DNA from: Pusillimonas sp. T7-7
GTDB lineage: Bacteria; Pseudomonadota; Gammaproteobacteria; Burkholderiales; Burkholderiaceae_B
Direction of reading: 5' to 3'
Assembly: GCF_000209655.1 (NCBI RefSeq)
Contig: NC_015458.1
Span: 2,108,001-2,172,000 of the forward strand
Length of the DNA: 64,000 nucleotides
The position numbers and the translations under genes were made by a program. Of this stretch, positions 33,543 to 41,272 are shown piece after piece. A model generated the notes under the pieces. That model was not told where the DNA came from, searched no databases, and saw only the letters and a list, made by a program, of their open reading frames with translations. The stretch's first letter is position 1; every line of letters begins with the position of its first letter.

Positions 33543-34733
33543 TTAGTAAATAGGTACTGAGAAACGAATACCTATATCATAGTCGCCACCGTCCAGCTGC
33601 CGCTCTGCCTCAAGACCTATGCGCAAATTCGGGCTGTACCAGAACTGTTGAGTAAAGCCGAAGCTGCGCCGGCTGTCGCCCAACGATGTCTGCTCGTTCT
33701 CATATCTGCCGCTCAAGTCGCCCCAACGCCCCATAGGCACGGTCGCTGTCCATTGCTGGCGCTGTCCACCCACGGAAGGATCAGCGGTATATCGGCTGAG
33801 GTCTGCATATCCCGGTTCGCGATGCTCTCCCAGCCATGAAAGCCGCAGATCACCAAAGACATCCAGCTCGTAAGCGGCTTGATAGCGCAGACCGCCTTGA
33901 TCACCGACAGTCGCCTGCGCGAGGCCAGCGCTCCAGTTGCCCCAACTTGTGCGGTATTGCCCCCCCAGGCCTGTGGACACCAGTTCGGGCGCCACCTGCA
34001 ATTGGGACTCCAGCACGAAACTTGGGCTGATGCCGTAGCGAAAAACAGAATTGGCAGCGGTGGGTCCCAGCTCCAAGTCGCCCCCCGAACCTGAAGAATA
34101 ATCAAGCGCACCGATGGACAAGGCATATTGCCAATTATTTTCGACATCCTCTGCATTGACCAATGATGACTGCGATATGCTGATGCCGCCCAGCCGCGCT
34201 GAATTGCCCCAGGCCGGCGCAACAATATCCTTGCTGCCCAGGGCAATGTCCAGCCCGTCGTCGCCCTTATAGCTCCAGTTTTTTGCTCCTAGCGCCCAGG
34301 ACGTACCCCTTCCTGCAGACGAAGGCGTAAATTGCCTGCCACGGGGCGTGCTCAATGCGCCCCACAAACCAGGAGATGAAGGCGAGACGTCGCTGCCATG
34401 CCATATATCCGAGTCGCCAGGGCTCCAGGAAAAGCTGTAGGAAATATCTGGAATGCTGTCGGCCGCATCGGTGAAAATGGTTTCTTCATCGTTCACAACC
34501 GGTGTGGCGCCAGCGTCAGGCAAGGGGACAGGCGGAGCCACTTCGATTTGCGGAGCGGCAAATAGCTGCACCGGCGCCAGTTCACGCAATCTTTGGCTGT
34601 CAGCCTGCGCCGGCTGCCCCAGCAGCAGGCAAGCCAAGCCCGCGCATCGCAACAATACAGCTGCATGCACGAAGCCCACAGACGATAAAAACTTAACGAC
34701 ACACTGCAAAACCACCCCGCCAAACAAACACAC
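33543..34733 (-). CDS. Predicted outer-membrane beta-barrel protein, unknown function
   Basis: A protein of 396 residues (true start uncertain, since the first 20-30 residues are not a normal signal n-region). A hydrophobic stretch '[18 protein letters not shown]' looks like a Sec signal with cleavage before DSQRL. The mature part has alternating strands rich in Gly, Ser, Trp and Tyr and ends '[10 protein letters not shown]', a terminal aromatic typical of barrels inserted by BamA. The central region ('[17 protein letters not shown]') faintly recalls usher barrels. I assign no family. It lies 2 bp upstream of recQ and 5 bp downstream of the CLC gene. Confidence 0.7.
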
Positions 34734-34738
34734 TCGCG

Positions 34739-36532
34739 TCAGCGCAAGTGCCTGCCTGCCGAAAAATCCAGCATGGCTTCACCGCTGGTATCAAAAGACC
34801 TTTTCAGGGCGCTGTACTTTTCAAGCACCGCCGATTTGTACACAACCCCCAGCAGAGTGGGCTGCTCGCCACGACTGACCACAGGCAGTCGTTCACCCTG
34901 AAAATGGACAAAGTACTCTTGCGCCTGGTCCAGCGTCATATCAGGATGCAGCGTCTTGACAAAGTCCAGCCGCAGGACTTCGCCCGCCAGCTTGCTCTGC
35001 ACATCGCCCTGCCCCAACAATAAACTGGTCAAATCCTGTTGGGCAATCACACCTTGGTAAATATTCTTTTCATCCACAACGTACAGATACTTGACGGGAT
35101 ACTCCAGAAACATCTGCAAGGCATCACGCACGGGAGCCGTCGTGGCCACTACGGTATCGGCCGGACGAACCAGATCCTGGATGACAGTGTGCCTGAGCCG
35201 ATAGCGCAGCCAGGCATCACGCTCACGCACAACCGTTACATCGTACATGGCCACTTCCGCCACCGCACGGGACACAAAATGCGCAATCACGCAGGCAAGT
35301 ATCAAGGGCAAAACAATCTGGTAGCTGAGCGTCATTTCGAAAATCATCAGTATCGCCATCAGTGGCGCACTGGTCGCCGCTCCCAGGAAGCTGCCCATGC
35401 CCACCAGGACATACATATAAGTTTCCGCCGTCATGCCGGGCCAGAGCCATGTGACGACCATGCCAAACAGCGCCCCCAGCCCGCCGCCCACGAAAAGCGC
35501 GGGAGTAAACACGCCGCCCACGGCCCCCGAACCAACCGTAACAGCCGTGGCCAGTATCTTGAGCAGCAGAATGGCCAGCACCGCATACCATGTCCACGAT
35601 GCATGCAACAGGGAATGAACAACGCTATAGCCGTTACCCGCCACTTCGGGCATGATAATGAGCAACAAACCAAGCAGGCCGCCACCCAGGCCCAGCCTGG
35701 CCGGCAAAGGCCACTCTGTACGCTGGAACTGGCGTCGGGAAAAATCCAGAAACTTCAGAAACAATGGAGCGCCGAGGCCGGCGATCACGCCAAGCAAGAG
35801 GAATGGCAGCACCTCAAGGCCCGGAATCTGCGGCATGTCGCTGATGGCATAGGTAGTGTGGTATTGACCCGACAAACGCATGACAATGTTGGCCGAGGCG
35901 GCAGCCACCAATAACGGTCCCAGGCTTTGCATGCTCATGGTCCCCAGCACGATTTCGGCTACAAATAGCGCCCCGGCTATGGGCGCGCCATAGGCTGACG
36001 CAACGCCGGCTGCCGCTCCGCAGGCCACCAGCAAACGCAGGCGAGCGGTGCTGAAACGGGTAAAGCGGCCAATAACCGAGGCGCTGAGCGCGGCCAAATG
36101 CACCATGGCGCCTTCTCGGCCTATGGAGCCGCCCGAGGCAACCGAGCTTAGTGACGACAAGGAGCGCAGCAGGCCCTGACGTAAAGACAGGTGGCCATCG
36201 CCAATGGCCACCGCTTCCATGTAATCGGAATTGGTACTGCCTTTGAGCAGCTTGGACGCCCAGAGCAGAGCGCCCGCCACCACGCCACCCACCATTGGGA
36301 ACAACAGGCGGCCGTACCAGGGCAGCTCGCGCGTCACACCCACAATAGAGCCGCTGCGGCCGGTGGCCAGGTGCTGTACCAGACGCATGCCCTCATGAAA
36401 GGCAATCGTGGCAAACGCCCCCAGCGCCCCAACCAGGACAGCCCAGCACAGCATGGCGGGAAGGTCCGACAACCAGGAGTAGCCGGCAAGGCGTTCACGT
36501 ACCGACTGCACGGTGCTGCGTATCATGCTCAA
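34739..36532 (-). CDS. CLC-type chloride channel/antiporter with C-terminal CBS domains
   Basis: A protein of 597 residues. A CLC membrane domain of about ten or more helices comes first, with motifs 'ASGGSIGREGAMVHLAALSASVIG' (containing the gating Glu), 'GAAAGVASAYGAPIAGALFVAEIV' and 'GSGAVGGVFTPALFVGGGLGALFG'; then a CBS pair at about residues 450-580 ('PVKYLYVVDEKNIYQGVIAQQDL', 'YFVHFQGERLPVVSRGEQPTLLGVVYKSAVLEKYSALK'). CLC proteins of this kind exchange chloride for protons or conduct fluoride or chloride. After the gating Glu the usual Pro is replaced by Ala. No neighbour suggests the physiological ion. Confidence 0.9.
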   Translation of the reverse strand: MSMIRSTVQSVRERLAGYSWLSDLPAMLCWAVLVGALGAFATIAFHEGMRLVQHLATGRSGSIVGVTRELPWYGRLLFPMVGGVVAGALLWASKLLKGSTNSDYMEAVAIGDGHLSLRQGLLRSLSSLSSVASGGSIGREGAMVHLAALSASVIGRFTRFSTARLRLLVACGAAAGVASAYGAPIAGALFVAEIVLGTMSMQSLGPLLVAAASANIVMRLSGQYHTTYAISDMPQIPGLEVLPFLLLGVIAGLGAPLFLKFLDFSRRQFQRTEWPLPARLGLGGGLLGLLLIIMPEVAGNGYSVVHSLLHASWTWYAVLAILLLKILATAVTVGSGAVGGVFTPALFVGGGLGALFGMVVTWLWPGMTAETYMYVLVGMGSFLGAATSAPLMAILMIFEMTLSYQIVLPLILACVIAHFVSRAVAEVAMYDVTVVRERDAWLRYRLRHTVIQDLVRPADTVVATTAPVRDALQMFLEYPVKYLYVVDEKNIYQGVIAQQDLTSLLLGQGDVQSKLAGEVLRLDFVKTLHPDMTLDQAQEYFVHFQGERLPVVSRGEQPTLLGVVYKSAVLEKYSALKRSFDTSGEAMLDFSAGRHLR

Positions 36533-38771: not shown

Positions 38772-39821
38772 CTAGCCATCAAAATTCGGTGGCGTAGGCG
38801 GTATCGACAAACCGAACATCCGCCAATACACCCAGATGTTGAAGATCACCGCCACGGGCAGGGCGATGATCGTGGCCGACAACACCAACCACATTGAGTC
38901 GACCGAAGCTGCTGCGTCCCACAGCGTAATCTCGTCCAGCACCAGATAGGGGAAAAAGCTGTAGCCCAGGCCACCAAGCACTGTCATGAAAATCAGCAAG
39001 GTCATGAAGAATGGCAGTGCCGTAGTGCGATAACTGCTGTTGATCATGCGCTGCAAGCACATTTCAACCGACACAAAGCACACCAGCAGCATGCCCCACA
39101 TGGTCACCACGATCTGCCAGTGCGGCCCGTCGCTCCACTTCAGAAACACACCCGGATTGGCGAAAGCCAGGACGACGGAAACCGCCACTGCTCCCGCCGC
39201 AGACCAGCGTACCGCACGCCTGCCCCACATGACCGCGCGCGCGCGCAACTCGCCGGTCACCCGCATAATCAGCCAGGATGATCCCAACAAGCAATATGCA
39301 GCCACCGCACAAAGGCCTACAAACAGCGAGAACCAGATATAGCCAGGCTCGGAGTGATACGACACGACGATTTGCGCAAGAAGCAGGCCATGCGAAAACG
39401 CCGTCAGCAAGGAGCCAATGCCAAAGCCTGCTAGCCAGCGCTTTTGCAGCGCCTTCGGCGCGCGCAAGCGTATTTCAAAGGCAGCCGAACGCAGCAGGAC
39501 GCCCAGCCCCAGCAGACACAATGGTAGGTAGAGCTGCCCCATAATGCTGCCCGCTGCCTTGGGAAAAACCGACACGAACAGCCCCAAGCCCAGGAACAGC
39601 CAGAACTCATTCGCATCCCTCCAGGGGCTCAATAAGGAAAGCATGCGCTGCCTGGACTCCTTTGGGGCGAACAGCGTCAGGCAACCCACCCCTATATCGA
39701 ACCCGTCCAGTACCGTACCGGCCACGATAATGGCGAAAAACAGCAGCATGAATACCAAAGGCATCCAGAAAAATGGATCTTGTGCGCTTAAGCCCAGAGC
39801 GATAGCCAAAGCTTCTATCAT
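38772..39821 (-). CDS. cydB: Cytochrome bd-type oxidase subunit II (CydB-like)
   Basis: A membrane protein of 349 residues with about nine helices. CydB landmarks are kept: 'GTVLDGFDIGVG' near the N terminus, 'SPWRDANEFWLFLGLGLFVSVFP', and a C-terminal 'FFPYLVLDEITLWDAAASVDSMW' followed by 'WVYWRMFG'. Canonical CydB binds no haem and stabilises CydA. The start overlaps the stop of the subunit I gene (4 bp, 39818-39821), so the pair is translationally coupled. No cydX-like frame is evident downstream. Its partner subunit lacks the usual haem ligands, so an oxidase activity should not be assumed. Confidence 0.88.
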   Translation of the reverse strand: MIEALAIALGLSAQDPFFWMPLVFMLLFFAIIVAGTVLDGFDIGVGCLTLFAPKESRQRMLSLLSPWRDANEFWLFLGLGLFVSVFPKAAGSIMGQLYLPLCLLGLGVLLRSAAFEIRLRAPKALQKRWLAGFGIGSLLTAFSHGLLLAQIVVSYHSEPGYIWFSLFVGLCAVAAYCLLGSSWLIMRVTGELRARAVMWGRRAVRWSAAGAVAVSVVLAFANPGVFLKWSDGPHWQIVVTMWGMLLVCFVSVEMCLQRMINSSYRTTALPFFMTLLIFMTVLGGLGYSFFPYLVLDEITLWDAAASVDSMWLVLSATIIALPVAVIFNIWVYWRMFGLSIPPTPPNFDG

Positions 39822-41158
39822 GCCCTTCCCCTGCGACGGGCAACCGGCACCACGCCATAGCGCACGATATGGCGAAGCATTTGCAAGAAGCTGATGAGCA
39901 GCAATAAGTAAACCACCAGATGGGCAAGATACCCGCCCAGCAGCGCATATAAGGACGTTGTCCCCGCCACTTCACTTATTGTGACTGTGCCATTCACTGC
40001 GTATGGATAGGCGCCCAGCAACACATGGAACAAGCCAGCCAGCAGCATTAACCAGCCTGAAAACGTCATACCCGCCAGCACCTGCCGCCCCCATCGCGAC
40101 AACTCTCCCGGATCGTATCGTACCCGCCGGGCGCGCCACAAGGTCAGCCACGCTGCAAGCAGCATCAACAAGCCAGTCAGCGCAGCAAGCCGGAACGACC
40201 AGAACGTTGCAGACACCGGTGGCCGCATACCCGAAAACTGGTCCAGCCCCCGTAAAGCACCCGCTTGATCGCGCCCTATCCATGTGCTGCCCGCACCGGG
40301 CCATAGCCAGGCCAGGCGATTGGCATGCGCCTGTGTGTCGGGCCAGGCAAACAACACCAAGTCGGCCGGCTGACCACTTTCCCAGTAGGCAGCGGTAGCC
40401 GCCGCCTTGGCCGGTTGATGACGCGCCGTCATATGGCCGGTTCCGGCTGCTGCCAAACCCTGCAGCACTATGCTTACCGTAGCCAGCCATAGCGCCGACT
40501 TGAATACCAGACGCCCGCTTTCGTCCACGGGGCGGCGCAGGCTTTGGGCGGCAACCACACCAATCATGAGAAATGCCGTCGTCAGGAGCGCAGCCAGAAC
40601 AAAGAGCGCGGCATACCAGGGGAGCGCCGGATTGAATATGACGGCCACCCAGTCGAGCACCTGATACTGCCCATCGGCAAACAGCACGCCTGCCGGTGTG
40701 TGCGTCCAGGACAACAGCACCAATAGCCAGAGAACGCTTACGACTACACCCACCGCCACCATGAAGACCACCAGCGTATGCACCTTATCGGATAAATAAC
40801 GTTGCCCGAACAGCATGGCTCCCAGAAAGCAGGACTTGAACACATAAGCCGACAACACCCCCGCCGCCAGCAAAGGCCCTGCCACATTGCCGATTTTCTC
40901 GATAAGCTCAGGCCACAGGCTGCCGAACTGTATCAGTACCGGAAGACAGGCCGCAAAGCTTAAAATAAAGGCCAGCGCAAACACACGCACCCAAAAGCGG
41001 TAGGCCGCCGTCCAGGCGGCATGATTCGGCCCGCGCGAACGTAGCTTGAAGTACAGTAAAACCCACGCCAAGCCCAGCTCCAAGGCCAGAAACAGCAGCA
41101 TGAACCCCAGGCTAGAGAAAAACTGTATCTGAGATAACCACAATGTCGTGTGCGTCAT
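39818..41158 (-). CDS. Cytochrome bd-like subunit I lacking canonical haem ligands
   Basis: A protein of 446 residues with about nine membrane helices, related to CydA. Helix 1 ('LSQIQFFSSLGFMLLF') and the helix-3 region ('IQFGSLW' to 'DKVH') align to E. coli CydA without gaps. Recalled E. coli residues map as follows: H19 to M20, E99 to G100, E107 to K108, H186 to L185, M393 to A325, E257 to A256; K252 and R391 are kept (K251, R323), and a Q-loop remnant 'HQPAKAAATAAYW' remains, while GRQPW becomes GAYPY. There is no CXXCH site. It therefore probably does not bind the bd haems in the known way. Start at ATG 41158; an upstream in-frame codon would add 18 residues. Coupled to cydB. Confidence 0.85.
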   Translation of the reverse strand: MTHTTLWLSQIQFFSSLGFMLLFLALELGLAWVLLYFKLRSRGPNHAAWTAAYRFWVRVFALAFILSFAACLPVLIQFGSLWPELIEKIGNVAGPLLAAGVLSAYVFKSCFLGAMLFGQRYLSDKVHTLVVFMVAVGVVVSVLWLLVLLSWTHTPAGVLFADGQYQVLDWVAVIFNPALPWYAALFVLAALLTTAFLMIGVVAAQSLRRPVDESGRLVFKSALWLATVSIVLQGLAAAGTGHMTARHQPAKAAATAAYWESGQPADLVLFAWPDTQAHANRLAWLWPGAGSTWIGRDQAGALRGLDQFSGMRPPVSATFWSFRLAALTGLLMLLAAWLTLWRARRVRYDPGELSRWGRQVLAGMTFSGWLMLLAGLFHVLLGAYPYAVNGTVTISEVAGTTSLYALLGGYLAHLVVYLLLLISFLQMLRHIVRYGVVPVARRRGRA

Positions 41159-41272
41159 AATGAGCGCTAGTTTAGAGCCAGATCGGCATTTGTAAACCCG
41201 TAAAGCAAGCAAATAACGCTAGACGTGGCAAAATGCTTACTTCAACCGATAATTCCTGTTTATTAATTTTGT

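Follow-up and report, generated by a model that had tools for sequence, protein, structure and literature searches.

Closest described systems

The cydA-cydB gene pair described here lies on the minus strand of a 64,000-nucleotide stretch of the Pusillimonas sp. T7-7 genome (hereafter the window; NC_015458.1, positions 2,108,001 to 2,172,000). Its closest described relatives are the canonical cytochrome bd oxidases CydAB and CioAB, among which the CydAs of other Burkholderiales families are nearest. In Escherichia coli CydA, haem b558 is held by H186 and M393, haem b595 by E445, and haem d by H19 with E99 opposite (available text of PMC8324918). E107 is part of a proton path to the active site (titles cited by PMC6853902), and a water chain, D119A-K57A-K109B-D105B-Y379B-D58B (A, CydA; B, CydB), leads towards the haem d propionate (available text of PMC6853902). 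The archaeal CydAA' and Nitrospira bd-like OR-N proteins are, like the window's CydA, members of the CydA superfamily away from the qOR type. Archaeal CydA' has lost haem ligands. CydAA' pairs occur in Nitrospirales (available text of PMC12342949). In these systems two CydA-type subunits pair, whereas the partner here is a true CydB. The membrane subunits NrfD/PsrC and ACIII ActC are also among the closest known systems.

Compared with canonical CydAB/CioAB, the window's pair shares the two-subunit fold, the DGFD and DANxxW motifs of CydB, and K252 and R391 of CydA, but all haem ligands, E107, and E257 are lost, and W57 of CydB is replaced by Arg. As far as sequence can show, the pair represents a real, old, and conserved haem-free derivative of cytochrome bd.

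A CydA without haem ligands, paired with a true CydB

39818..41158, minus strand: haemless CydA, 446 amino acids (Pfam PF01654, E = 7.6e-94, and ligand states; annotated-type name, cytochrome bd ubiquinol oxidase subunit I)
38772..39821, minus strand: partner CydB, 349 amino acids (Pfam PF02322, E = 1.1e-55; 4-nt overlap with cydA)

CydA scored 315 bits against PF01654 (Cyt_bd_oxida_I; cutoff, 26.2), and its predicted fold is that of bd subunit I. Pfam assigned its partner to Cyt_bd_oxida_II (PF02322), so this is not a CydAA'-type pairing, in which a CydA paralogue serves as the partner. Both proteins scored under the cutoffs of the NCBI CydA and CydB models. A preliminary description, made by eye, had reported an open cydA frame of 446 codons coupled to an intact cydB; the frame indeed runs open from the ATG at 41158 and overlaps cydB by 4 nt.

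Residues were mapped by aligning the protein, with HMMER, to CydA chains from solved E. coli structures, and the mapping was repeated against the genome's own canonical CioA; the two agreed column for column. The key codons, with counts from the comparison set defined below, are as follows.

41099..41101, minus strand: CydA M20 (E. coli H19, haem d ligand), by alignment
40859..40861, minus strand: CydA G100 (E. coli E99), by alignment
40835..40837, minus strand: CydA K108 (E. coli E107); Lys in 111/113 and Arg in 2/113 haemless rows, Glu in 45/45 canonical rows
40604..40606, minus strand: CydA L185 (E. coli H186, b558 ligand), by alignment
40184..40186, minus strand: CydA A325 (E. coli M393, b558 ligand), by alignment
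40019..40021, minus strand: CydA L380 (E. coli E445, b595 ligand), by alignment

Neither the b558 ligands, nor those of haems d and b595, nor E107 were found in the window's CydA. At the quinol site, K252 is kept (as K251), E257 is replaced by A256, and the GRQPW motif reads GAYPY; R391 is retained. The substitutions at H19, H186, M393, E99, and E107, the altered GRQPW motif, and the retention of K252 and R391 had all been proposed in the preliminary description, and the HMMER alignments returned the same states. Its claim of ligand loss stands, but its count of three was too low: five known ligands are lost, the replacement of E445 (L380) having been missed, as was that of E257 (A256).

Age and spread of the haemless clade

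Of the 440 relatives found in a protein search, 120 were listed: the window protein's own database copy and 119 further homologues, some of which are fragments. When these were aligned with the window protein (121 rows), His at H19, His at H186, Glu at E99, and Glu at E107 each occurred in 0/121 rows; the E107 position was Lys in 117/121 and the M393 position Met in 15/121. A genome search covered the window's own genome together with 60 related ones (61 in all), and 37 of them belong to the window's family. The haemless gene, read from the search table and the fetched loci, was present in 29 of these 37 and absent from G010, G014, G015, G017, G024, G025, G034, and G036. The nearest outsiders from other families were 35 to 39% identical and canonical where read, and in an order-wide sample of 300 genomes every match above 500 bits fell in the window's family. 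A scan of named genomes yielded 164 matching stretches, the best 80 of which placed haemless loci in Pollutimonas, Pusillimonas, Candidimonas, Alcaligenes, Achromobacter, Bordetella, and others.

For comparison, 158 CydA rows were split on E99 into 113 without it (haemless; 94 distinct sequences) and 45 with it (canonical; 44 distinct). L002 and ten duplicate loci had been excluded beforehand, and one fragment, L029, was removed; 80 of the 113 haemless rows came from the named-genome scan, and some genomes are present two or three times. The difference at E99 is true by construction, and E107, H186, and E257 followed the split without overlap. All five ligands were kept in 44/45 canonical rows, whereas 103/113 haemless rows had none, nine had one, and L044 had three. 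In a tree of all 45 canonical rows and 32 selected haemless ones (77 in total), the latter formed one branch with a support of 100/100. Because the ligands are present in all canonical lineages, they were presumably lost rather than gained, the root being only a midpoint. L044 branched first, in keeping with a stepwise loss, although the support for the remaining members was only 87/61.

The pair occupies one place across the family. A divergent glnS lies within 247 nt of cydA in 78/80 named loci (the contig of each remaining locus stops at that point), 70/80 have recQ within reach, and even the most divergent members, L037 (36% identity) and L040 (39%), occupy the same place, so the pair was most likely inherited vertically. 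Canonical CydAB/CioAB loci, in contrast, lie beside a MarR-type regulator gene, found near 21 of 23 outsider loci from other families. Far from being a local oddity, haemless CydA forms an old clade found across a bacterial family.

Two members stand apart. L044 (genome G011) is a natural half-way state in which H19, M393, E445, and GRQPY are kept and E99, E107, and H186 are absent. L037 (genome G033), the most divergent member, has a CydA with a long C-terminal tail and a CydB without DGFD and D58.

Joint changes in both subunits and shifted constraint

40985..40987, minus strand: CydA R58 (E. coli K57, proton path); Arg in 113/113 haemless rows, Lys in 40/45 canonical rows
39618..39620, minus strand: CydB R68 (E. 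coli W57); Arg in 113/113 haemless rows, Trp in 44/44 canonical rows
39615..39617, minus strand: CydB D69 (E. coli D58, end of the proton path); Asp in 112/113 haemless rows, Asp in 38 and Glu in 6 of 44 canonical rows

By alignment, the equivalents of the E. coli water chain, with Y379 left out of the mapping, are CydA R120 (107 of the 113 haemless rows), CydA R58 (113), CydB R120 (113), CydB E116 (113), and CydB D69 (112). The residue of E. coli CydB corresponding to R120, K109, is Lys in 44/44 canonical rows. CydB W63 is kept in 113/113 haemless rows. Further residues nearly invariant in the haemless set are CydA C110 (110/113) and CydB R205 (113), W242 (112), E253 (112), and D302 (113), the last also present in 13/44 canonical rows. 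These patterns suggest an access path that has persisted, gained fixed positive charge, and had its end rebuilt.

Ratios of nonsynonymous to synonymous substitution rates (dN/dS; NG86) were calculated for six pairs from four congeneric genomes and are rough, dS being 0.6 to 1.6. They were 0.08 to 0.15 for the haemless cydA, 0.05 to 0.07 for its cydB, 0.04 to 0.05 for cioA, and 0.04 to 0.06 for cioB. The haemless pair is under purifying selection; these values, well below 1, uphold the earlier view that CydA is not decaying and is kept with CydB. When pairs at least 97% identical in CydA were left out, CydA was more conserved than CydB in 926/945 canonical comparisons and in 309/6297 haemless ones. 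Within the limits of a comparison of nonindependent pairs, constraint has shifted towards CydB.

A probable pseudo-oxidase and its possible function

The named proteins among the 120 listed homologues are all called cytochrome (bd or d) ubiquinol oxidase subunit I. The complex is nevertheless very probably not an oxidase, and we infer that it is incapable of oxygen reduction. On balance, the locus probably encodes a haem-free, redox-inactive CydA-CydB complex, a pseudo-oxidase that arose from canonical bd through ancient ligand loss and may use the former proton path for an ion or charged solute. This reading draws on the ligand loss across the clade, the preserved predicted fold, the preserved CydB partner, purifying selection, and the invariant changes in both subunits. 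Ancient loss of the haem ligands would have turned a canonical bd oxidase into a haem-free complex in which the E. coli bd-I proton chain to CydB D58 was kept nearly invariant and became more basic (K57A to R58, K109B to R120, D105B to E116, and D58B to D69). By homology, the chain would end at CydA K108 and CydB R68, near the former haem d/b595 pocket and its glutamates. Such a pathway could conduct, exchange, or sense an ion or a small charged solute, an anion being easiest to fit to the Lys/Arg lining, and CydB would be the more constrained subunit. The ion or charged-solute step itself is possible but doubtful.

Several points weigh against the pseudo-oxidase reading. The ion step is drawn from conservation and from the pathway of another protein, and the proximity of K108, R68, and D69 is inferred by homology. 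The dN/dS of the haemless cydA is 1.7 to 3.4 times that of cioA, and the gene is hence less constrained. CydA was ahead of CydB in only 13 of 21 pairs among seven cio-type rows, so the reversal of constraint does not hold against every canonical type. L044 might hold some haem, and nine further haemless rows each retain one ligand, Met or Glu. Finally, the L037 CydB implies that the path has been lost in at least one member.

Should the complex indeed be free of haem, the respiratory-chain inventories of this family are off by one enzyme, and an entire oxidase scaffold has been retained for a different task. What a bd fold can do without haem thereby becomes a testable question.

Alternative readings

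A more specific but unlikely proposal is that a terminal oxidase became a haem-free transporter or channel in the Alcaligenaceae membrane, whose proton half-channel, recoated with Arg and Lys, would lead to the K108/R68/D69 cluster at the former oxygen site and either move an anion or couple a solute to protons.

The pair might instead act on canonical bd or other oxidases as a partner or regulator, pairing with, stabilizing, or competing for their subunits. Besides the haemless CydA, the window's genome encodes one PF01654 protein, at G000:C1:1185346; it is a canonical CydA of the CioA type and is followed by a CydB-type gene. With PF01654 matches above 520 bits taken as canonical CydA, a second, canonical CydA was found in 26 of the 27 carriers tested (of 29; G023 and G029 were left out as incomplete or fragmented) and in 4 of the 8 family genomes without the pair. 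This association (Fisher P = 0.006) would fit such a role but is confounded by genome reduction in genomes without both. The remaining carrier, G009, is 99% complete and lacks a canonical CydA; moreover, the pair has its own CydB, which changed along with CydA, and shows no linkage to canonical genes. We regard this role as improbable.

Equally improbable is a quinone-binding module (a store, carrier, or sensor) that kept a site like the ubiquinone-8 site of E. coli CydB, at positions homologous to the CydA haems. E257 is lost in 113/113 haemless rows, GRQPW is broken in all but the L044-like ones, and likeness of fold shows no function.

It is very unlikely that the complex is a still-active haem protein, with one or more haems on other residues and perhaps a role in electron transfer. 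H127 (111/113), C110, and M115 (113/113) are conserved in haemless CydA, and L044 keeps three known ligands. However, H127 and M115 are shared with 44 and 37 of the 45 canonical rows, in which other residues are the known ligands, so that C110 alone would have to serve. Only two columns, H127 and H430 (105/113; 12/45 canonical rows), reached 60% His among the haemless rows; H241, H247, and H413, put forward earlier as alternative ligands, did not. CydD is needed for bd assembly, and it scored above the cutoff in 3 of 13 carriers tested and below it in 10, including the window's genome. The preliminary description had also raised an electron-carrying role. We found no support for it: there is no new His/Met pair conserved in the haemless rows, no CXXCH motif in the window's CydA (as that description had noted), and no gene for a redox partner in the operon, which comprises two genes.

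That the pair is on its way to loss and kept by chance would agree with the faster evolution of cydA than of cioA, its absence from 8/37 family genomes and, if cydAB3 (below) is the orthologue, the broken cydB3 copies of Bordetella pertussis, but it is highly improbable given the open frames, the low dN/dS, a CydB up to 93% identical between congeners, the clade-specific invariant residues in both subunits, and the single syntenic place.

A probable orthologue in Bordetella

cydAB3 of Bordetella (BB4012-4011 in Bordetella bronchiseptica; bp3224-3225) is probably a member of the haemless clade, an assignment made by elimination and by length and spacing. cydAB1 has cydX and cioAB is named apart, leaving cydAB3; judging from the published deletion, the starts of cydA3 and cydB3 lie about 1338 nt apart, and eight Bordetella loci of the clade measured 1334 to 1340 nt. 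The available text of PMC11257404 annotates cydAB3 as a predicted bd oxidase and counts it as a high-affinity one. There, its deletion from B. bronchiseptica left wild-type growth in air, persistence in mice depended on no single oxidase, strains with cyd3 alone were not obtainable, transcripts were low, and cydB3 was broken in 7 of 14 B. pertussis strains. The authors put the cyd3-only failure down to low expression, and it was likewise impossible to obtain strains in which cco, cio, ctaD2, or cyo2 was the sole oxidase; these data therefore do not show that cyd3 is inactive. The oxidase count is repeated in the available text of PMC13367067, where the enzymes are described as biochemically uncharacterized. 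BP3224 (B. pertussis cydB3) appears in a table of genes that contain a homopolymeric C/G tract (available text of PMC1891110), which may be related to the broken copies. Of the earlier claim of an undescribed system, the bd-derived clade holds; the system is not wholly unstudied, its probable orthologue having already been deleted.

Gene context and minor observations

41169..41174, minus strand: -10-like element TAAACT, 10 nt before the cydA ATG, read by eye from relatives' upstream sequences

In the window, the divergent gene upstream of cydA was named glnS from its position and sequence, and a convergent histidine kinase and response regulator pair lies downstream of cydAB. A TAAACT or TACACT element precedes the cydA start by about 10 nt in most of 22 upstream sequences ranging from Pollutimonas to Bordetella. 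This spacing suggests that the cydA mRNA is nearly leaderless, with a very short leader or none. At the C terminus of CydA (39818-39870, minus strand), R441, R443, G444, and A446 are nearly invariant, with a model confidence (pLDDT) below 50; part of this invariance may reflect a cydB ribosome-binding site inside the end of cydA.

A ClC chloride channel/antiporter gene with a CBS domain lies at 34739-36532 (minus strand), in the same orientation as cydAB. A clcA match was found in 26/80 named-genome loci, and among the probed genes the ClC gene directly follows cydB in L042, L062, L070, L076, and L127. A 396-amino-acid open reading frame at 33543-34733 (minus strand), which had no Pfam match, stands beside clcA and recQ in many relatives.
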